Positions 34,762 to 44,308 of a stretch of DNA of 64,000 bases are shown piece after piece. Position 1 is the stretch's first letter, and each line of letters begins with the position of its first letter. Location: contig NZ_SCMX01000003.1 in NCBI RefSeq assembly GCF_005503625.1, positions 1-64,000 of the forward strand, read 5' to 3'. The translations under genes and the position numbers were made by a program. The stretch is from Cupriavidus sp. 2SB (lineage in GTDB: Bacteria; Pseudomonadota; Gammaproteobacteria; Burkholderiales; Burkholderiaceae). The notes under the pieces are model-generated. The model saw only the letters and a program-made list of their open reading frames with translations, did not search any database and was not told the origin of the DNA.

Positions 34762-36627
34762 ATGAATCGTTACCCGCTTTGGAAGTACATCGTGATTCTG
34801 GTGGCCCTGGCCATCGGGATCATCTACACCCTGCCGAACTTCTTCGGCGAGGCACCCGCTGTGCAGGTGTCCTCCGCAAAGGCCACGGTCAAGGTCGACC
34901 TGGCCATGCAGAAACAGGTCGAGGAAGTGCTGGCCCAGAACCAGCTGCAGCCCGACGGGGTCTTTTTCGATCTCGCCGGCCAGTCCGGCTCGGTCAAGGC
35001 ACGTTTCCGCACGACCGACGAGCAGCTCAAGGCCAAGGACGTCCTGTCCCGCGCGCTCAATCCCAACGCCAACGATCCCACCTATGTGGTGGCGCTGAAT
35101 CTGCTGTCCGGCTCGCCGCAGTGGCTCACCTCCCTGCACGCACTGCCGATGTACCTGGGCCTGGACCTGCGCGGTGGCGTCCACTTCCTGCTGCAAGTCG
35201 ACATGAAGGGTGCCGTCGACAAGAAGCTCGACAGCCTCTCGGGCGATGCCCGTACGTTGCTGCGCGACAAGAACATCCGCCATTCCGGCATCGACCGTGA
35301 CGGCGACCGCCTGACCGTGCGCTTTGGCAATGCTGGCGAGGCCGACCGCGCACGCGCTGTCCTGGCCGATAGCCTGCGCGAGCTGGCATTCACCGTGGAC
35401 GGCAACAACGTCACCGGCGTGTTTACCGATGCTGCCCGCAAGGCCGTGCAGGACGCCGCCGTCAAGCAGAACATCACCACGCTGCACAACCGCGTGAACG
35501 AACTCGGCGTGGCCGAGCCCGTGATCCAGCAGCAGGGCGCCGACCGTATCGTCGTGCAACTGCCGGGCGTGCAGGACACGGCCAAGGCCAAGGACATCAT
35601 CGGCCGTACCGCCACGTTGGAAGCCCGCCTGGCCGATCCGGACGCACCGCGCAACCCGCGTCCGGGCGACCCGGTGCCGTTTGGCGACGAACTGTTCACG
35701 CAAGGTAACGGCGCGCCGGTGATCCTGCGCAAGCAGGTGATCTTCACGGGCGACCGCATTGAAAGCGCGTCGGCCGGCTTCGACCAGAACCAGCGCCCCT
35801 CCGTCAACATCAAGCTCGATGCACAGGGTGGCCGCACGCTGCGTGACGTGTCGCGCGAGAACATCGGCAAGCCGATGGGCATCGTCCTGTTCGAAAAGGG
35901 CAAGGGCGAAGTGCTGACCGTGGCGACGATCCAGTCGGAACTGGGTTCGAGCTTCCAGATCACCGGCTCCTACTCGACCGAAGCTGCCAACGACCTGGCG
36001 CTGCTGCTGCGCGCCGGCTCGCTGGCCGCACCGATGGAAATCATCGAGGAACGCACGATCGGCCCGTCGCTGGGCGCGGACAACATCCAGAAGGGCTTTG
36101 ACTCCGTCGCCTACGGCTTTGCGGCCATGGGCGTGTTCATGATCTTCTACTACATGCTGTTCGGCGTGTTCTCGGTAATCGCGCTGGGCGTGAACCTGCT
36201 GCTGCTGATCGCGCTGCTGTCGATGCTGCAGGCCACGCTGACGCTGCCCGGCATCGCCGCTATCGCGCTGGTGCTCGGCATGGCCATCGATGCGAACGTG
36301 CTGATCAACGAACGTATCCGGGAAGAGTTGCGCGCGGGCGCGTCGCCGCAGATGGCCATTGCCATCGGCTTCGACCGCGCCTGGGCCACCATCCTGGACT
36401 CGAACGTGACCACACTGATCGCAGGCCTGGCGCTGCTGGCGTTCGGCTCGGGTCCTGTGCGCGGCTTTGCCGTGGTGCACTGCCTGGGCATCCTGACCTC
36501 GATGTTCTCGGCGGTGTTCTTCAACCGCGGCATCGTCAACCTCTGGTACGGCCGCAAGAAGAAGCTGCAGAGCCTGGCCATTGGCCAGGTCTGGAAGCCG
36601 GGCCCCGATACCCCGGTCACCAAGTAA
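34762..36627 (+). CDS. secD: Protein translocase subunit SecD
   Basis: SecD forms a proton-driven complex with SecF that pulls secreted proteins out of the SecYEG channel on the periplasmic side. The 621-residue product has an N-terminal membrane helix and the motif GLDLRGGVHFLLQVD near residue 132. A large periplasmic domain follows. Five C-terminal helices contain the IALVLGMAIDANVLINERIREE stretch (quoted in part: GMAIDANVLINERIREE). Its length is normal. secF follows 21 bases later. Confidence 0.98.
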   Translation: MNRYPLWKYIVILVALAIGIIYTLPNFFGEAPAVQVSSAKATVKVDLAMQKQVEEVLAQNQLQPDGVFFDLAGQSGSVKARFRTTDEQLKAKDVLSRALNPNANDPTYVVALNLLSGSPQWLTSLHALPMYLGLDLRGGVHFLLQVDMKGAVDKKLDSLSGDARTLLRDKNIRHSGIDRDGDRLTVRFGNAGEADRARAVLADSLRELAFTVDGNNVTGVFTDAARKAVQDAAVKQNITTLHNRVNELGVAEPVIQQQGADRIVVQLPGVQDTAKAKDIIGRTATLEARLADPDAPRNPRPGDPVPFGDELFTQGNGAPVILRKQVIFTGDRIESASAGFDQNQRPSVNIKLDAQGGRTLRDVSRENIGKPMGIVLFEKGKGEVLTVATIQSELGSSFQITGSYSTEAANDLALLLRAGSLAAPMEIIEERTIGPSLGADNIQKGFDSVAYGFAAMGVFMIFYYMLFGVFSVIALGVNLLLLIALLSMLQATLTLPGIAAIALVLGMAIDANVLINERIREELRAGASPQMAIAIGFDRAWATILDSNVTTLIAGLALLAFGSGPVRGFAVVHCLGILTSMFSAVFFNRGIVNLWYGRKKKLQSLAIGQVWKPGPDTPVTK

Positions 36628-36648: not shown

Positions 36649-37623
36649 ATGGAATTTTTCCGCATCAAGCGCGACTTTCCGTTCATGAAGCACGCGTTGA
36701 TCTTCAACGTGGTCTCCTTCCTGACGTTTGCCGCTGCCGTCTTCTTCCTCTGGCACAAGGGCCTGCACCTGTCGATCGAGTTCACCGGCGGTACGGTGAT
36801 GGAAGTCAACTACCAGCAGACCGCCGATCTCGAAAAGATCCGTGGCCAGGTAGGCAAGCTCGGCTATAGCGACGTGCAGGTGCAGAACTTCGGCACCTCG
36901 CGCGACGTGATGATCCGCCTGCCGCTGCAGAAGGGTCCGGACGGCAAGCCCGTAACCTCGGCGCAGCAGAGCGAACAGGTGATGGGCGCGCTGACCGCCT
37001 CCGCGCCTGACGCCAAGCTCCAGCGCGTGGAATTTGTGGGGCCGCAGGTAGGCAAGGAACTGGCCACCGACGGCCTGCTGGCGCTGCTCTGCGTGGTGGC
37101 CGGTATCGTGATCTACCTGTCGTTCCGGTTCGAATGGAAGTTCGCCGTGGCGGGCATCATCGCCAACCTGCACGACGTGGTGATCATCCTGGGCTTCTTC
37201 GCGTACTTCCAGTGGGAGTTCTCGCTGTCGGTGCTCGCGGCAATCCTTGCGGTGCTCGGTTACTCGGTGAACGAATCGGTCGTGATCTTCGACCGGATTC
37301 GCGAAGCCTTCCGCAAGTACCGCAAGATGAGCACCCACGAAGTCATCGACCACGCCATCACCAGCACGATGTCGCGGACCATCATCACCCACGGCTCGAC
37401 CGAAATGATGGTGCTGTCGATGTTCTTCTTCGGCGGCCCGACGCTGCACTACTTCGCACTGGCCCTGACCGTGGGTATCCTGTTCGGTATCTACTCGTCG
37501 GTGTTCGTGGCTGCGGCACTGGCCATGTGGCTGGGCGTCAAGCGCGAAGACCTGGTCAAGGGCGACAAGAAGGGAGGCGACTCCACCGACCGCAACGACC
37601 CGAACTTCGGGGCGCAGGCCTGA
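36649..37623 (+). CDS. secF: Protein translocase subunit SecF
   Basis: SecF is the partner of SecD. The 324-residue product has six hydrophobic segments, the periplasmic motif LSIEFTGGTVMEV near residue 44, and the C-terminal GYSVNESVVIFDRIRE segment typical of SecF. The cytoplasmic tail is charged (KGDKKGGDSTDRNDPN). An 11-nt tandem repeat and a bidirectional terminator follow the stop codon. Confidence 0.98.
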   Translation: MEFFRIKRDFPFMKHALIFNVVSFLTFAAAVFFLWHKGLHLSIEFTGGTVMEVNYQQTADLEKIRGQVGKLGYSDVQVQNFGTSRDVMIRLPLQKGPDGKPVTSAQQSEQVMGALTASAPDAKLQRVEFVGPQVGKELATDGLLALLCVVAGIVIYLSFRFEWKFAVAGIIANLHDVVIILGFFAYFQWEFSLSVLAAILAVLGYSVNESVVIFDRIREAFRKYRKMSTHEVIDHAITSTMSRTIITHGSTEMMVLSMFFFGGPTLHYFALALTVGILFGIYSSVFVAAALAMWLGVKREDLVKGDKKGGDSTDRNDPNFGAQA

Positions 37624-37750: not shown

Positions 37751-38743
37751 TCAGACTTCCGTCAGGTTCTCGATCCAGACCGCCAGGCGATCCGACGCAA
37801 ACGACTCGGTACGGGTGCCGGTGCGCGCCGAAATGGCATCGCCCTCGCGCACCAGTTGCAGCGCCCCGCCTGCTTCCTCCAGCCACAGCAGCGTAGCCAG
37901 CCAGGCAGCGTGTTCGGCCGACACGGCTTCGCCCACTGGATTGGCGACAAACTCGCTCAACGCTGCGGGGGACGTCCAGGTGATGACGTCGCCATCACGG
38001 CGCACGGACGCGCCAAGCGCCTCGGCCAACACCGCCGCCACATCGCCAGCGCCACGGCCCGCTGCGCGCAACGCCGCGAGCCTCAAGCCGACCGCATGGC
38101 CAAACGATCCACTGCGCTGGCTTTCCGCGCCGATCACGTCCGCGTAGTCCATGCGCTGCCAGTCCGGCTCGGCATTCTTCGCACCGGCCAGCGAGGTACC
38201 CGACAGATACGTCTCCACCGGCTGGAATTTTCCAGGACCGATCAGGCTCGCACACAGCGCATGCACCATGCCCACGCGCGTCGCCACGGTCTGCTTCTGC
38301 AGCACCATCAGCTTCTCGCGTACAAGCTGGTCGCGCTCGCGGCGCAGCCCGGACAGTTCCAGCGCTTGCTTCAGTTCCATGCGCAGCGCCGTAATGTCCC
38401 ACGGCTTCTTGATGTAGCGATGGATCTGGCCCTGGTTGACTGCCTCGACGGTCTGGTCGAGCTCCGAGTAGGCCGTGGTCAGGATGCGCACGATGTGCGG
38501 GTAGCGCTCGCGCGCATACCGCAGCAGTTCGTTGCCATACTCGCCCGGCATACGTTGGTCGGACACCAGCACGGCAAGGCTCTCGGCGTGGGCATCGAGC
38601 AGCGCCTTGCCCTCCTCCACCGACTGGCCGGTCACCACCGGTGCAAGCTGCCCGATGGCGCGCTGGAAATACTTGACTGCGGTAGCTTCGTCGTCGACGA
38701 ACAGAATCGCCGGGGGTGCCTGCGTCATATTCGGTTCGCTCAT
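37751..38743 (-). CDS. phcQ: Response regulator PhcQ
   Basis: The 330-residue protein has an N-terminal receiver domain with the acidic pair at residues 17-18 (FVDDE), phosphoacceptor Asp62 (VLVSDQRMPG) and conserved Lys near 112 (YIKKPWD). A coiled segment (about 130-150) leads to a C-terminal domain of about 170 residues that I cannot assign to a known output fold. In Ralstonia solanacearum PhcQ takes part in the phc quorum-sensing relay. The ATG overlaps the phcR stop codon (ATGA) and has a good ribosome-binding site (aggag). The name rests on locus order and architecture. Confidence 0.85.
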   Translation of the reverse strand: MSEPNMTQAPPAILFVDDEATAVKYFQRAIGQLAPVVTGQSVEEGKALLDAHAESLAVLVSDQRMPGEYGNELLRYARERYPHIVRILTTAYSELDQTVEAVNQGQIHRYIKKPWDITALRMELKQALELSGLRRERDQLVREKLMVLQKQTVATRVGMVHALCASLIGPGKFQPVETYLSGTSLAGAKNAEPDWQRMDYADVIGAESQRSGSFGHAVGLRLAALRAAGRGAGDVAAVLAEALGASVRRDGDVITWTSPAALSEFVANPVGEAVSAEHAAWLATLLWLEEAGGALQLVREGDAISARTGTRTESFASDRLAVWIENLTEV

Positions 38744-39873
38744 CGATCACTCCTGTGCATACGATTCTTGAAATTGGGGAAATCGAGGGTAACGGTGGTG
38801 CCTGCGCCCGATGCGGACGCTATCCGGATGCCGCCACCAAAAGATTGCATTACGCGATTACAGAAAATCATGCCCATGCCGCTGCCACCCGCCGAGGCGT
38901 GCGTGGTCACCGGGTCCACCAGCAGCCGGCCCATCACCTCGGGCGGGATGCCGGGGCCGTTGTCCGCGATGCGGATTTCCGGCCGGTCACCGGACTCCAC
39001 GACAAAGCGCAGCAACGGCGCCTCGACGTCGGCCAGTGCCCGCAATGCATTGCTCATAACCGACGACAGCACCAGCGCCACGCAATTGGGCAGCGTGAGC
39101 ACCGGAAAATCACCGATCACATCGACCTGTACCCAACTACGCTGGTTATCGGCAAAAGGGTAGCTATCCAGTAGCGATGCCACCAGCGCGCCCGCACTGA
39201 CCTCCTGCCCCGGTCCGGTCCGGGGCTTGGTACCACCCGCGCTGCTCCGCACCGACTGAAGGAATGACGACAGCACCGCCAGGCAATACTGGGCGTTATC
39301 GTGCATCGCACCAGCGGCATGGCCGATCTCGGTCTGGCGCTGCTGGCTCAGTTCACCTCCGACGCGTGACTCGATGCCACGCGCGAAGTTGGCGATGGCC
39401 GCCAGCGGCGTATTCAGTTCGTGGGCAAGAAAGGCCAGCGTCTCGTCGATGGCCATCAGCCGCTGCTGGCGCACCGCGCGCTCGCGGAACCGTTCGCCGG
39501 CCAGCCGCAGGACATCCCGCGCACCCGCCACGCCAATCGGCTTCTCCAGGATGCGGAAGACCTCGCCGTTGTTCACGGTTTCGAGCAGCACATCCTTGTC
39601 CGCGTAGGCCGTGACCAGAATCCGCACGATCTGCGGATACTCCAGCGACACCTGGCGCAACAGGTCGCCACCATCGCGGCCCGGCATCCGGAAATCGGTC
39701 ACCAGCACGGATATCCGCGCGTGCTCCGCACGCAGGATGGCGATGGCTTCGTCGGCACCCGTGGCCGACAGCACTTCGTACTCGCTGCCCACAGCGCGGG
39801 CAAAATACTTGCAGGCCATCTCCTCGTCATCGACGTAGAGAATGGTAGGACGCGCCTGCGTAACTTCGATCAT
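38740..39873 (-). CDS. phcR: Hybrid response regulator/histidine kinase PhcR
   Basis: The 377-residue protein reverses the usual order. A receiver domain comes first, with acidic pair at 15-16, phosphoacceptor Asp60 and conserved Lys near 111. A histidine-kinase output follows, with an H-box around His151 (AFLAHELNTPLAAI) and a C-terminal ATPase domain (SNALRAL, IADNGPGIP, GGSGMGM). PhcR of Ralstonia solanacearum is known for this arrangement. The ATG at 39873 lies seven bases after phcS; an upstream in-frame extension is unlikely. It probably receives phosphate from PhcS and may pass it to PhcQ. Confidence 0.88.
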   Translation of the reverse strand: MIEVTQARPTILYVDDEEMACKYFARAVGSEYEVLSATGADEAIAILRAEHARISVLVTDFRMPGRDGGDLLRQVSLEYPQIVRILVTAYADKDVLLETVNNGEVFRILEKPIGVAGARDVLRLAGERFRERAVRQQRLMAIDETLAFLAHELNTPLAAIANFARGIESRVGGELSQQRQTEIGHAAGAMHDNAQYCLAVLSSFLQSVRSSAGGTKPRTGPGQEVSAGALVASLLDSYPFADNQRSWVQVDVIGDFPVLTLPNCVALVLSSVMSNALRALADVEAPLLRFVVESGDRPEIRIADNGPGIPPEVMGRLLVDPVTTHASAGGSGMGMIFCNRVMQSFGGGIRIASASGAGTTVTLDFPNFKNRMHRSDR

Positions 39874-39880
39874 GACAACA

Positions 39881-41212
39881 TCACTCCGCGCGCGGCAGGT
39901 CAAAACTGAAGGCAGCCCACTGGCCGACCTCGCTCTCGGCATAGAGCACGCCGTCGTGGCGCTCGATCACCGCATAGCTGATCGACAGGCCCAGCCCCAA
40001 CCCCTGCCCCACTTCGCGCGTCGTGAAGAACGGTTCGAACACCCGCGCGAGGTTTTCCGGCGCAATGCCGGGGCCGTTGTCGCGCACCGTCACGTGCAGG
40101 CGCTTGACGTCCCAGCGCACGGTCGTATGGATCGCCGGTTCCTTCGTGCCCGCCTTGCGCATGGCCAGCGCGGCATTCGAAAACAGGTTGATCAGCACGC
40201 CGATGATCGCAGCCTCGTCGCCGAGCACCAGCGTATCCATCGGCATCTCGCGCGTCATCTTGACGCCGCGCAATTCGTGCGCCGTCAGCCGCTGGGACGA
40301 GTCGAGCGCCTTTTCGAAAAGGAAAGGTGTGCCCTCCACCTCGGCGCCGGGCTTGCGGTACGCAAACGTCTTCAGGTCGGAGACGATATGCTGGATGCGT
40401 TGCATACCCTGCTTGGCATCCACCAGGCACTCCTGGATCCCCGGCTCGTTCTTGGCCGCCGGCTCCTCCATGGCCACCTCGATGGCCATCAGGCAGAAAT
40501 TCACCGGATTGTTGACTTCGTGCAACAGCCCCGCCGCCAGCGTACCGATGGCGGCCATCTTTTCCTGCTGCAGCATCTGGCCCTTGATATCCACCAGCTT
40601 GCGATTGATGACTTCGAGCTCGGTGTTCTTGTCTGCCACCTCGGCCTTGAGCCGGAACAGCATGAAGCGCGCGCGTTCATTGAAGAACGTGTACACGCCG
40701 CTGGCAGCCGCCGCGAACAGCAGGAATAGCGAGTTCACGATGAACGTGCCCATCGGCTCGATGCCGCCGGAATGCAGCAGGCAAGCCAGCGCGTAGAGCA
40801 CGTACGAGAGAATGCCGAACACCAGGTTCTGCCAGAGTCCGAATGGCAGGGCGATGCCCGAGGCGAAGATCGCGAGGTTCAGGCCCACGTAGTAAGGCGA
40901 CTGCACCCCTTCGGTCTGCGAAATCATCCACGCAATCATGATCTGCGGCAGCAGCAGCCACGACATCGTCAGCCAGGGCGCGAAGCGGCGCCCCGCCTGG
41001 CTGTAGAGCGCCACCACCACGCCGGCAATCAGCAACGACACGACGACCCGCGCAATCGCAAAAGGCAGTTGCAGATGCGGGTACTGGCCGTAGTCGAGCC
41101 CGACACCAAGGAGCACGAGGGCGATGGCCGTGTAGGCGCCGCCCCGACTGAACGCAAGGCGGAAGTCGGCCAGTTCCGACTGATAGCCGGCATAGAGTTG
41201 GTTCGAGCTCAT
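39881..41212 (-). CDS. phcS: Membrane sensor histidine kinase PhcS
   Basis: PhcS is the sensor for 3-hydroxy fatty-acid methyl esters in Ralstonia solanacearum. This protein has about six hydrophobic helices in its first 180 residues, a coiled linker, an H-box (AAGLLHEVNNPVNF) and an ATPase domain (NLFSNAALAM, VRDNGPGIAP, GLGLGLSISY). From the ATG at 41212 it has 443 residues and the phosphorylated His is residue 231, close to the His230 I recall for PhcS. An in-frame ATG at 41302 has a better ribosome-binding site (ggagaattcgc) but overlaps phcB by 65 bases, so the start is uncertain. Confidence 0.87.
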   Translation of the reverse strand: MSSNQLYAGYQSELADFRLAFSRGGAYTAIALVLLGVGLDYGQYPHLQLPFAIARVVVSLLIAGVVVALYSQAGRRFAPWLTMSWLLLPQIMIAWMISQTEGVQSPYYVGLNLAIFASGIALPFGLWQNLVFGILSYVLYALACLLHSGGIEPMGTFIVNSLFLLFAAAASGVYTFFNERARFMLFRLKAEVADKNTELEVINRKLVDIKGQMLQQEKMAAIGTLAAGLLHEVNNPVNFCLMAIEVAMEEPAAKNEPGIQECLVDAKQGMQRIQHIVSDLKTFAYRKPGAEVEGTPFLFEKALDSSQRLTAHELRGVKMTREMPMDTLVLGDEAAIIGVLINLFSNAALAMRKAGTKEPAIHTTVRWDVKRLHVTVRDNGPGIAPENLARVFEPFFTTREVGQGLGLGLSISYAVIERHDGVLYAESEVGQWAAFSFDLPRAE

Positions 41213-41237
41213 GACCCTGGCAGGCGCCGCCTCTATC

Positions 41238-42629
41238 TCAGCGGATGGTGGCTTCGGCGAAGACATTGACGCCGGTTTCATCGACATAGAGTCGGTGGGC
41301 ATGCGAATTCTCCGGCAGCAGCGAGGACATCCCCGCCTCGTCGCGATAGATCAGGTACCACTCCAGCAAATGTTCCATGCCGAATTTCTCGGGATTGTCG
41401 GAGTGGACATTGGTGACCAGCATCTCCCCGCCCGGCTTCGATCGCGATGCGAAATAGGACAGCAGACGCGCGCAGACCTTGTCCGAGAGATAGTCGAACA
41501 GGCCGGCGCAGTAGACCGCGTCGAACTCCCGCACGCTCGGGTCGTCCATGGCAATCCGGCGCTTGAGCAGTTCATGCACCGACTGATGCAGCATCTCCAC
41601 CGATACCTTGTGCCCGGCCGCCGCCGCCGATCGCTCGATCGAGCTGCGTGTGTATTCGAGCGTTTCCTCGCTGAAATCGACCAGCTGGAACGACAGCAAC
41701 TCCGGATTCGGGTACTCGCGCACGAAGCGCTGGATCTCGAATGCCGGCCCGCACCCCACGTTGAGGATGCGGAACGGACGCCCCGCGGCCCGCGCGCGCT
41801 CGGCCTGCCGTGTCAGGAAGTCCACCAGCAGGTCGATGCGGTTGCGGTGCGCCGTAGCCACCGCAGCCTTGAGGAACGCGGTGTTGACGATCTGGAAGTA
41901 CGTGGTCGGACCCTGCTGCGGATCGCTGAGGATCTGGTTCACCATCTCGTAGTCGCCGGCGTAGCCCAGCGGCTTGGTGAAGGTGCGGTACACGAACGGT
42001 GCCCGCAGCAGCAGCGGATGCAGCGCGGCCTGCGCATAGGTGCGGTGCACCGGCGCCAGTTCGCTGTCCACGCTCTGTGCTTCACCCTCGAGCCAGTCGA
42101 GGTAGGTCTTCACCTTCCCCATCAGCGGCGAGGCCAGTTCGTAGAACACGTCCTCGCGCAGCCGGCCTTCCTTCTTCGGCAGCGACTCGGTCAGGTCCAC
42201 CTGCTCGACCCAGCGCGAGACTTCCGAGAGGAATGCGCGCATCTCGTTGACCACGATCTGGTAATCGCGCCGGATATTGAAGCGCGTGTCCCAGTCCTGG
42301 ACAAAGAGATTCGCCTCGTGGGCGACCGACTTGGGCGCGTCGCCCACGTCCGTCAGCTCGCGCCATTCGTCGATCAGCGTCAGCGAGACCACAGCGGTCA
42401 GGCCCGTGTTGACGAGACTCATGACGACGGCCTTGCCGAGGTAAGCGTTCTTGGCGCCCATGCGGACGTTCAGTTCGCTGAGTACCTCGCTGACCTGGAC
42501 AATCGAATAGGGATTGTAGATTTCCATCACCAGCGACTTGCGCTGGAGATTGATAATCGTGCCCCGCACCTGCTCGCCCTGCGAGTTGCGGAAGCTGACT
42601 ACCGGATCGATTTGCGTTTTGGAGTACAC
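41238..42629 (-). CDS. phcB: SAM-dependent methyltransferase PhcB (3-hydroxy fatty-acid methyl ester synthase)
   Basis: By homology PhcB methylates a 3-hydroxy fatty acid to make the phc quorum-sensing signal. From the GTG at 42629 the protein has 463 residues. The C-terminal half is a class I methyltransferase with SAM-binding motif NVGCGPAFE near residue 290 and an acidic post-motif QLVDFSEE. The N-terminal 90 residues (about 7-87) form a small beta-rich domain that looks PilZ-like, and a helical region follows. A TTG at 42677 would add 16 residues; neither start has a strong ribosome-binding site. It is the first gene of phcB-phcS-phcR-phcQ. Confidence 0.87.
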   Translation of the reverse strand: MYSKTQIDPVVSFRNSQGEQVRGTIINLQRKSLVMEIYNPYSIVQVSEVLSELNVRMGAKNAYLGKAVVMSLVNTGLTAVVSLTLIDEWRELTDVGDAPKSVAHEANLFVQDWDTRFNIRRDYQIVVNEMRAFLSEVSRWVEQVDLTESLPKKEGRLREDVFYELASPLMGKVKTYLDWLEGEAQSVDSELAPVHRTYAQAALHPLLLRAPFVYRTFTKPLGYAGDYEMVNQILSDPQQGPTTYFQIVNTAFLKAAVATAHRNRIDLLVDFLTRQAERARAAGRPFRILNVGCGPAFEIQRFVREYPNPELLSFQLVDFSEETLEYTRSSIERSAAAAGHKVSVEMLHQSVHELLKRRIAMDDPSVREFDAVYCAGLFDYLSDKVCARLLSYFASRSKPGGEMLVTNVHSDNPEKFGMEHLLEWYLIYRDEAGMSSLLPENSHAHRLYVDETGVNVFAEATIR

Positions 42630-42857
42630 GGTATCGCGCCAGGGGAATTCCGAGAAACACTGCGGGCTCGGCGCCAAGGGGCAGCCGGCCGATTACGGCT
42701 CAGGCAAGGGACTTGAGGCGAACTACCAGTCAGGGAATGCAGCCTATGCTCATATCGATGCGCGTGACCTGTTGCGGGAAGGCGCGCACCGGCAGGCTGG
42801 CGGAACTGGCCATTGCACTGGCGGGCGCCGCCCCAGAGGGTGGGACTGCGGCGACCC

Positions 42858-42887
42858 ATTGTACTGTGGCTGTTCGACAACGCACAA
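42858..42887 (-). promoter_or_regulatory. Possible sigma-70 promoter of phcB
   Basis: On the minus strand TTGTGC and TACAAT are separated by 18 bases, about 230 bases upstream of the phcB GTG. The -10 is one mismatch from consensus and the -35 is weaker. This is the best match by eye, not a mapped start. Confidence 0.35.
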
Positions 42888-43065: not shown

Positions 43066-43656
43066 TTAGTCCGCCTTGACGGCCTCGACCTGGATCGCCA
43101 GCTTCACGTCCTGCTTGAAGCCGTACTTCACACCGTAGTCGATGCCGAAGTCGGCGCGGTTGAACTCGGCCACGGCATCGGCGCCGCAAGCTTCACGCTT
43201 GAGCATCGGGTGCTGGATGCACTTGAATTCCTTGATCTCGAGCTTGACCGGCTTCGATACGCCGCGCAGCGTCAGCACGCCTTCCACTTCGGTCGGCACG
43301 TCGCCCTTGAACTTCGAGAACTTGCCCTTGTACGTGGCATCCGGGAAAGCCTGTACGTCAAACATCTCCGGGCCCTTGGCGTGCTCGTTGAGCTTGCCGT
43401 TGCCGAAATCGATCGACGCCGCATCGATCTTGATGTCCACCGTGCCGGTCTTGGCAGCACGGTCCAGCGTCACCACGCCGGTGGACTTGTCGAACTTGCC
43501 ACGCCACTTCGACAGGCCGCCCAGGTGGTCGGCTTCGAAGCTCGGGTACGTGTGGGTCGGATCGATGTTGTACGTCGACGCGTTGGCCATGGCGGCGCCG
43601 GCGGCGAACGTGGCGGAGGCTGCCGCGGCAGCGGCGATCAGGGTGCGCATTTTCAT
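43066..43656 (-). CDS. YceI family periplasmic lipid-binding protein (second copy)
   Basis: The 196-residue protein has a Sec signal peptide (about residues 1-26, [20 protein letters not shown], cleaved after ANA). A YceI beta-barrel domain follows, with the conserved [20 protein letters not shown] start and [10 protein letters not shown]. YceI proteins bind isoprenoid or amphipathic ligands in a lipocalin-like fold and are periplasmic. It has Cys residues within the barrel ([14 protein letters not shown]). It follows another yceI paralogue by 76 bases, downstream of a cytochrome b561 gene. The ligand is unknown. Confidence 0.92.
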
Positions 43657-43732: not shown

Positions 43733-44308
43733 TCAGCCCTTCTTTGCCGGGGTCACGATATGGAACTTGATCTGGACGTCGTCGGCCACCACGGAAGTGT
43801 CCTTCCACTCGCCGTCGCCGATGTTGAACACGGTACGCTTGATCGGCAGCACGCCGTCGAAGACCTGCGCACCGCCGTCCTGCTTGTACGTGGCCGGCAC
43901 GGTCACGTCGATGGTCTTGCCCTTGATGGTCAGCTTGCCCACCACGTCGTACCTGCCTGCGGCGCCAGCCTTGATGCTGGTGGACTGGAACACGGCCTTC
44001 GGAAACTTGCCTGCATCGAACCAATCCTTGCCCTTGACCTCCTTCGTGGTCTCGGCATCGCCGATCTCGAAGCTCGACACATCGATCTCGACCTTGGCCG
44101 ACGAGGTGGCGAGCTTGGCCGGATCGAAGTCGAGGGTGGCATCGAACTTCTTGAACTTGCCTTCCATCGGCACGCCAATCTGCTTGGCAACGGCCGTGAC
44201 CGAGCTCTTTGCGGCATCGATCTGGGCCCATGCCAGGTTGGCGGCCATGCCCGCCGTGGCCAGCACGGCGGCCACGAGGATTGGACCGGAACGGGACATG
44301 CGTTTCAT
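43733..44308 (-). CDS. YceI family periplasmic protein (first copy)
   Basis: The 191-residue product has a signal peptide (about residues 1-28, ending NLAWA) and a YceI domain starting [20 protein letters not shown]. The [20 protein letters not shown] segment is typical of the family. It is clearly a paralogue of the next gene but only distantly similar. The gene lies 48 bases after the cytochrome b561 gene, a common pairing that suggests work on a quinone- or isoprenoid-type ligand. Confidence 0.92.

Follow-up and report, generated by a model that had tools for sequence, protein, structure and literature searches.

The window, by which we mean the whole 64,000-nucleotide stretch of DNA from Cupriavidus sp. 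2SB (contig NZ_SCMX01000003.1), contains the genes phcB, phcS, phcR and phcQ. We conclude with considerable confidence that, judged from sequence, these genes belong to a complete Phc quorum-sensing system of the type found in Cupriavidus and Ralstonia, and that this system is probably functional. Since the system is already known in Cupriavidus, the locus is one more copy of it, and it is ordinary for the genus. Comparison with related loci shows, at the level of aligned genes, that a block consisting of the catalytic part of the signal synthase (PhcB) and the sensor part of the receptor (PhcS) has been exchanged between lineages; the likely reading is the exchange of a matched synthase-receptor cassette.

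Results

The phc locus

The original prediction described a complete phcBSRQ locus of tightly packed or overlapping genes. We find four consecutive minus-strand open reading frames (ORFs) exactly where it placed them, at 37751..42629, and the packing is as tight as claimed: with the preferred starts, 25 nt lie between phcB and phcS and 7 nt between phcS and phcR, and phcR and phcQ overlap by 4 nt. The proposed architectures (methyltransferase, sensor kinase, receiver-kinase hybrid and receiver) are recovered as Pfam domains, namely Methyltransf_25 at residues 288-401 of PhcB; HisKA and HATPase_c in PhcS; Response_reg, HisKA and HATPase_c in PhcR; and Response_reg alone in PhcQ. The six helices attributed to PhcS correspond to six hydrophobic segments that precede the kinase in a simple hydropathy scan with a cut-off of 1.2 (residues 49-67, 81-99, 110-128, 138-156, 160-178 and 185-203), four of which also exceed a cut-off of 1.6; a seventh segment, at 363-381, lies inside the ATPase domain.

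The expected phosphorylation residues are present in PhcS, PhcR and PhcQ. The H-box histidine of PhcS, which is residue 261 of the long ORF and 231 from the preferred start, is invariant in 12 of 12 aligned sequences and may be compared with the H230 reported in R. pseudosolanacearum (PMC11960443). Residues D83 and H174 of PhcR (long-ORF numbering) are also invariant (12 of 12), as are D62 and R156 of PhcQ (23 of 23) and R22 of PhcB (22 of 22). Counted by eye on the alignment, R156 is residue 154 in a Ralstonia row (L069), a position reported as R154C; R22 is the PhcB position reported as R22C in R. solanacearum (both PMC6989110).

The frame of phcB is open beyond its GTG, as far as a TTG at 42677 (start codons were checked in the letters), and the GTG start is supported because the invariant arginine counts as residue 22 from it. 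In 23 of 78 relatives, the stretch aligned to the long PhcS ORF is interrupted by at least one stop; in L037 and L089, the two of these 23 loci that were inspected, the frame opens only downstream of the stops. Since the stops fall within the long-ORF stretch, the start of PhcS is more likely at 41212. For PhcR, alignment with relatives favours the start at 39873.

The regulator that the original prediction named as a test of its reading is present in the genome. The orthologue of PhcA is a LysR protein of 331 aa with the Pfam domains HTH_1 and LysR_substrate. Its gene (G000:C108:66682-67677) lies outside the window, 24 kb from the phc operon, and adjoins a FUR-family gene with which it is convergent; PhcA was identified by its likeness within Cupriavidus and Ralstonia and by the published layout, not against PhcA from a named R. 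solanacearum. The same neighbourhood is reported in C. metallidurans CH34, where phcA (Rmet_2977, versus Rmet_2949-52 for phcBSRQ) adjoins fur (PMC2864759). All 60 sampled genomes of the genus contain both PhcB and PhcA; in the 46 that carry both genes on one contig, the two share a strand without exception and are separated by 23-40 kb, with a median of 25 kb. The identity of this genus as Cupriavidus follows from C. pinatubonensis HN-2 (L030, class I as defined below), because its phcB and phcA positions are found again in genome G445 of the sample. The gene order B-S-R-Q holds in 31 of 31 fetched loci titled Cupriavidus. Thus the proposed match to the phc system of R. solanacearum is supported by operon order, by domain make-up, by conserved residues (the histidines and aspartates and the R22 and R154 positions) and by PhcA 24 kb away. 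Neither sequence outcome that would have refuted it, membership in unrelated families or a genome lacking phcA, is observed.

Allele classes in Cupriavidus

When the 60 genomes are sorted by the identity of PhcB to that of the window, 47 fall at 85-100% (class I, the commonest, to which the window allele belongs), eight at 73-76% (class II) and two at 69-70% (class III), and three have PhcB in two pieces at 85-92%. These classes are counts by PhcB identity; from this list, only ten class II/III genomes were fetched and placed on trees, four of them being the named loci L054, L055 (C. yeoncheonensis, class II), L057 and L058. Compared with class I relatives of similar distance, class II/III loci are more different in PhcB and PhcS, and mostly no more different in YceI, PhcR, PhcQ, SecF and SecD.

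We compared 20 class I rows (the window and 19 loci) with the ten class II/III rows, pooled; loci lacking SecD/SecF were omitted for those genes, leaving 28 rows. In windows of 40 columns, the six-helix part of PhcS is 43-61% identical between classes, versus 84-91% within class I. The difference is nearly gone in the PhcS kinase, and it is small over PhcB residues 1-80. Identity within classes exceeds identity between them by 28.3 points in PhcS 31-198 and by 16.7 points in PhcB 81-463, gaps that none of 1000 shuffles of the class labels reaches, and by less than 0.3 points in YceIa, YceIb, PhcQ, SecF and SecD.

The two divergent parts also vary together. In 67 of the 77 rows of the wide trees described below (those left after removing ten rows of other lineages), the nearest neighbours by PhcB 81-463 and by the PhcS sensor are of the same class in all 67, although most rows have near kin. 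Distances in PhcB correlate with those in the PhcS sensor at r 0.974, versus 0.706 with the PhcS kinase; because the rows are related, these values are descriptive only.

Borders and exchange of the block

The signal-making region of PhcB and the sensor region of PhcS vary jointly, as a single block flanked by constant ends, most cleanly in the pairs L040/L102 and L041/L102. Scanning from -900 to +4800 relative to phcB codon 1, we find a single stretch of divergence between L041 (C. gilardii) and L102, from +148 to +1918, with 68.5% identity inside versus 94.8% outside; for L040/L102 the borders are +150 to +1920. The right end in L041/L102 is at about PhcS residue 200, which is the end of the sixth hydrophobic segment. 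In the other seven cross-class pairs one or both borders lie elsewhere, ranging from L033/L054 (+148 to +2068) to L026/L101 (+263 to +3890). Allowing for a block gains 89-349 log units in the nine cross-class pairs; the five same-class pairs, with a gain of 10-17, have no block of that order.

Four-fold sites in L041/L102 are 68% identical in PhcB 81-463, versus 83-100% in the rest of the locus, and three same-class pairs have four-fold identities of 81-86% in the block. From this drop inside the block we conclude that the alleles are old, rather than just the product of selection. The PhcS kinase and PhcR of L026/L099 and L023/L098 have four-fold identities (60-69%) as low as those in the block, which fits a wider exchange in those pairs.

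Trees of the block, of the flanks and of the inner genes (PhcS kinase-PhcR-PhcQ), which are quick-type trees of 27 rows without L024, L034 and L036, disagree about the classes. The block tree separates the classes clearly: class I, class II and class III (the pair L102/L103) each form a group of their own on starred branches. The flank tree shows nine changes of class label, at least six of them forced by starred branches, and the inner-gene tree shows six, at least five of them forced. The approximately unbiased (AU) test rejects monophyly of class I both for the flanks (p 1.2e-4) and for the inner genes (p 1.2e-5). For the block, it rejects monophyly of the C. gilardii group (p ~1e-57) and of the C. 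basilensis group (p ~1e-56).

Allele classes are shared across genera in the wide trees, which have 77 rows (14 of 90 loci were omitted as same-genome copies, near-copies or incomplete) and are quick-type trees under a simpler model. Among the rows listed for the block tree, 20 Cupriavidus class I blocks cluster with those of 13 loci whose titles name Paraburkholderia or Burkholderia. The blocks of L102 and L103 (class III) cluster with 17 other Paraburkholderia loci, and both clusters have full support. In the wide backbone tree, L102 and L103 remain with C. gilardii. The position of the P. translucens row L051 in that tree is an artefact, its PhcQ having been taken from a neighbouring second operon.

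Alternative explanations

We consider it very improbable that the locus is a different two-component/methyltransferase operon that merely resembles phc. PhcB has no NCBIfam match at E 0.001, and the best NCBIfam matches of the kinases and receivers are to other families, far under their cut-offs, as such a look-alike would lead one to expect; against it stand the near full-length similarity of PhcB, the phc gene order, the linkage to PhcA and the published identification of the system in the genus. Since LysR and two-component proteins are common (with 150 of 248 candidates scored, the genome of the window has at least 146 LysR helix-turn-helix matches), similarity of any single gene is weak evidence alone, and it is operon order and PhcA linkage that carry the case. 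Several observations nevertheless count against a complete, working system, or against a sharply bounded block. Among the 60 genomes of the genus, phcB is in two pieces in three and has an internal stop in one, and phcA is short or split in two and has an internal stop in two, which may mean that the system is dispensable, or else that the draft assemblies contain errors. The affected Cupriavidus genomes are G425, G454, G455 and G450 for phcB, and G452, G461, G450 and G459 for phcA. From CH34, 3-hydroxypalmitic acid methyl ester (3-OH PAME) is reported not to have been purified despite attempts (PMC2864759), so the signal may be a compound other than the classical one. As for the block, small class gaps remain outside it, of 1.0 points in PhcB 1-50, 1.5 in the PhcS kinase and 1.9 in PhcR (reached by 6, 5 and 22 of 1000 shuffles, respectively); the right border lies well past the sensor, at +2923 to +3890, in L035/L054, L026/L099, L026/L101 and L023/L098; and the left border lies upstream of phcB in L031/L055 and L029/L055.

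Two other accounts of the divergent block must be weighed. Fast adaptive amino-acid change within lineages, driven for example by phage, host or signal-thief pressure, could produce divergence with no exchange at all, and there is precedent for selection on these genes: PMC6580516 describes balancing selection on phcB and phcS in R. solanacearum, PMC5995829 describes positive selection in C. taiwanensis, and a paper on phage selection in R. solanacearum mentions phcS 12 times (PMC10959482). Such change would not, however, account for the sharp borders and the contrast in identity across them in L041/L102, for the fall of four-fold sites along with the protein in the same pair, for the rejection of host lineages as clades in the block and of class I in the flanks, or for the grouping of class III with Paraburkholderia alleles; we therefore regard it as improbable. 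A more serious alternative, although still a doubtful one, is that the classes are ancient neutral alleles, maintained and reshuffled by ordinary recombination, that differ neither in the signal made nor in the signal heard. The borders that miss the domain edge speak for it, the divergence running on through phcR in L026/L099, L026/L101 and L023/L098 (right border +3650 to +3890), as does the low four-fold identity beyond the sensor in L026/L099 and L023/L098. The joint kinship of synthase and sensor parts, descriptive as it is, speaks against it, as does the report that PhcB/PhcS sequence groups in R. solanacearum match signal type (PMC8578825).

On balance, we lean somewhat towards exchange of a functional cassette, that is, towards a modular dialect in Cupriavidus and Paraburkholderia. 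A cassette of about 1.8 kb, comprising the catalytic part of PhcB and the sensor of PhcS, would be traded within and between genera, so that one recombination would change both the signal and its hearing, while constant ends (PhcB 1-50, the PhcS kinase, PhcQ, and PhcA if present) would keep the output. The cassette most likely contains the portion of the synthase that selects the substrate together with the portion of the receptor that binds the signal, and we infer that it sets which signal is made and heard. The constant N-terminus of PhcB, with R22, would then be the site through which the constant parts influence the making of the signal.

Distribution outside the genus

A PhcB match occurs in 11 of 399 genomes of the order (the genome of the window included), and in nine of them it is near full length, at 58-100% identity; the eight from other genomes are at 58-83%, and that in G294 has a stop inside the match. 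PhcQ has nine matches of at least 44%, in the same nine genomes, and because of this co-occurrence with near full-length PhcB the locus is not a product of chance. When named genomes were scanned with a PhcB alignment of eight rows, the nearest among the best 80 of 242 confirmed stretches is that of Cupriavidus agavae (98%), followed by other Cupriavidus, Paraburkholderia and Ralstonia. Seven Ralstonia-group loci, from R. pickettii and other Ralstonia, serve as a bridge to R. solanacearum, none of the seven being so named; relative to the window they are 69-71% identical in PhcB, 59-62% in PhcS, 56-57% in PhcR and 52-54% in PhcQ. They differ from the window in having no secDF or YceI match in their fetched flanks.

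PhcA is more restricted. At E 1e-50, with the five best candidates per genome scored, it has a match in two of the 399 genomes (the window's own and one of the same genus). With all candidates scored in 14 phcB-carrying genomes, PhcA is found at 77-100% in five Cupriavidus and Ralstonia genomes, the window's own included; the other nine have no LysR match above 33%, and three of these have none at all at E 1e-5. The nine are G225, G037, G082, G197, G294, G323, G049, G400 (L079) and G401 (L089). As PhcA occurs, among the genomes searched, only in Cupriavidus and Ralstonia, phcB carriers such as Paraburkholderia must use another output. In print, B. phytofirmans PsJN is reported to have phcBSRQ and to lack phcA (PMC3639386), and the phc system is said to be intact only in Cupriavidus and Ralstonia (PMC5995829).

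The Paraburkholderia loci have peculiarities of their own. One contig of Paraburkholderia translucens (L051, L086) carries two phc operons, of classes I and III, which face each other, about 5 kb separating their phcQ ends; the decayed phcR is in the operon of class III. A phcR without kinase part occurs in Paraburkholderia L070, L072, L073, L075-L078, L081, L082, L085-L089 and L091-L093 (for example, L089:12691-13337). In 16 of these 17 loci it is a stand-alone receiver frame of about 134 aa, and only in L086 is it about 47 aa; most of them have out-of-frame or decayed remnants of the ATPase end ahead of phcQ. We found no separate phcR between phcS and phcQ in Janthinobacterium sp. CG3 or in a Burkholderiales metagenome-assembled genome (L079:11440-13777 and L083:11413-13795).

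Further features of the window and its proteins

The coordinates of all features are collected in Table 1. The CACAGTACAAT core of the promoter-like site is identical in 22 of 22 aligned Cupriavidus upstream regions, and its TTGTGC is less conserved; a promoter at this distance from phcB would imply a long leader.

Table 1. Coordinates of the phc genes, the exchangeable block and neighbouring features in the window.
Feature	Position	Strand	Remarks
phcB, S-adenosylmethionine-dependent methyltransferase, predicted signal synthase, 463 aa	41238..42629	-	GTG start at 42629
phcS, six-helix sensor histidine kinase	39881..41212	-	preferred ATG 41212; ORF reaches 41302
phcR, receiver-histidine kinase hybrid	38740..39873	-	preferred ATG 39873; ORF reaches 39942
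phcQ, receiver protein	37751..38743	-	Response_reg only; C-terminal half without family
Exchangeable block, ~1.8 kb	40705..42481	-	phcB codon ~50 to PhcS residue ~200; L041/L102 borders projected onto window
Promoter-like TTGTGC-N18-TACAAT	42858..42887	-	~230 nt upstream of phcB; letters checked
secD	34762-36627	+	Pfam SecD/SecF; flank control, outside phc system
secF	36649-37623	+	Pfam SecD/SecF; convergent with phcQ; flank control, outside phc system
Two YceI genes	43066-43656 and 43733-44308	-	Pfam YceI in both; flank controls, outside phc system

PhcB has one hydrophobic stretch, at residues 68-86 (window 42372-42428) in the constant N-terminal part, and looks soluble otherwise. A PilZ-like N-terminus of PhcB, suspected by eye, was rejected, since no such Pfam family appears at E<=1 in 22 members, with the caveat that the filters of HMMER drop most weak matches. 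A PhcB profile has no match among solved structures at E 0.01, and beyond the receiver of PhcQ no Pfam family is present in more than three of 18 members. PF00765 (N-acyl homoserine lactone synthase) has no match in the genome, but a control search was equally empty in 14 genomes, so this negative says nothing either way.

Discussion

The individual steps of the pathway may be sketched as follows. Judging from its family, PhcB would methylate a 3-hydroxy fatty acid to yield a diffusible methyl ester; the six-helix part of PhcS would sense this ester and change the autophosphorylation of the conserved histidine; phosphate would then pass to the receivers of PhcR and PhcQ; and PhcQ, with a lesser role for PhcR, would let the LysR regulator PhcA act on its targets. 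The last step is modelled on R. pseudosolanacearum, in which PhcS H230, a main role of PhcQ and a small one of PhcR are reported, and in which PhcQ binds and stabilises PhcA (PMC11960443, PMC8578825, PMC13320629).

The phc system is said to have been described in Cupriavidus in 2000. It was reported in 2010 from C. metallidurans CH34 and C. necator JMP134 (PMC2864759, PMC2842291), which belong to other species than the window strain and share with it the genus and the five genes. In CH34, phcBSRQ and phcA are reported and complementation of an R. solanacearum phcA mutant was obtained (PMC2864759); the JMP134 system is complete, with 56-75% identity to R. solanacearum (PMC2842291). Mutations in phcR and phcA are reported in evolved C. 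necator H16 (PMC10164946). The original prediction left open what the system controls, and for relatives this is partly answered in print. PhcA activation stimulates motility in CH34, and phcA inactivation is without effect on siderophores (PMC2864759, citing Garg 2000); according to print, the targets in CH34 differ from those of R. solanacearum. PhcA is also said to have a role in the symbiosis of C. taiwanensis with Mimosa (PMC5995829).

Two known systems bear on the proposed exchange. In R. solanacearum, PhcB and PhcS fall into two groups that track signal type and not phylotype, while PhcR and PhcQ follow phylotype (PMC8578825, citing Kai 2015); the sampled Cupriavidus differ in having three allele classes, two of which group with Paraburkholderia alleles. 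In a literature search that left aside most subscription journals, we found no published description of block exchange of phcB-phcS in Cupriavidus. In the agr system of Staphylococcus, with its pherotype groups, the signal-making part and the sensor part of the receptor likewise vary as a block between constant ends; the proteins are unrelated, however, and the signal is a peptide in agr and a fatty-acid methyl ester in phc. The phc and agr systems have been compared with respect to balancing selection (PMC6580516).

The comparison of classes matters more than the locus itself, because it indicates where within PhcB and PhcS the specificity for the signal probably lies. The joint swap of signal-making and sensing parts between species looks like a change of dialect, and the C. 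gilardii loci L040 and L041, set against L102, are natural pairs of close relatives in which the cassette is the main difference. The comparison thereby makes testable the possibility that mutually deaf dialects of fatty-acid methyl esters exist outside the plant pathogens.

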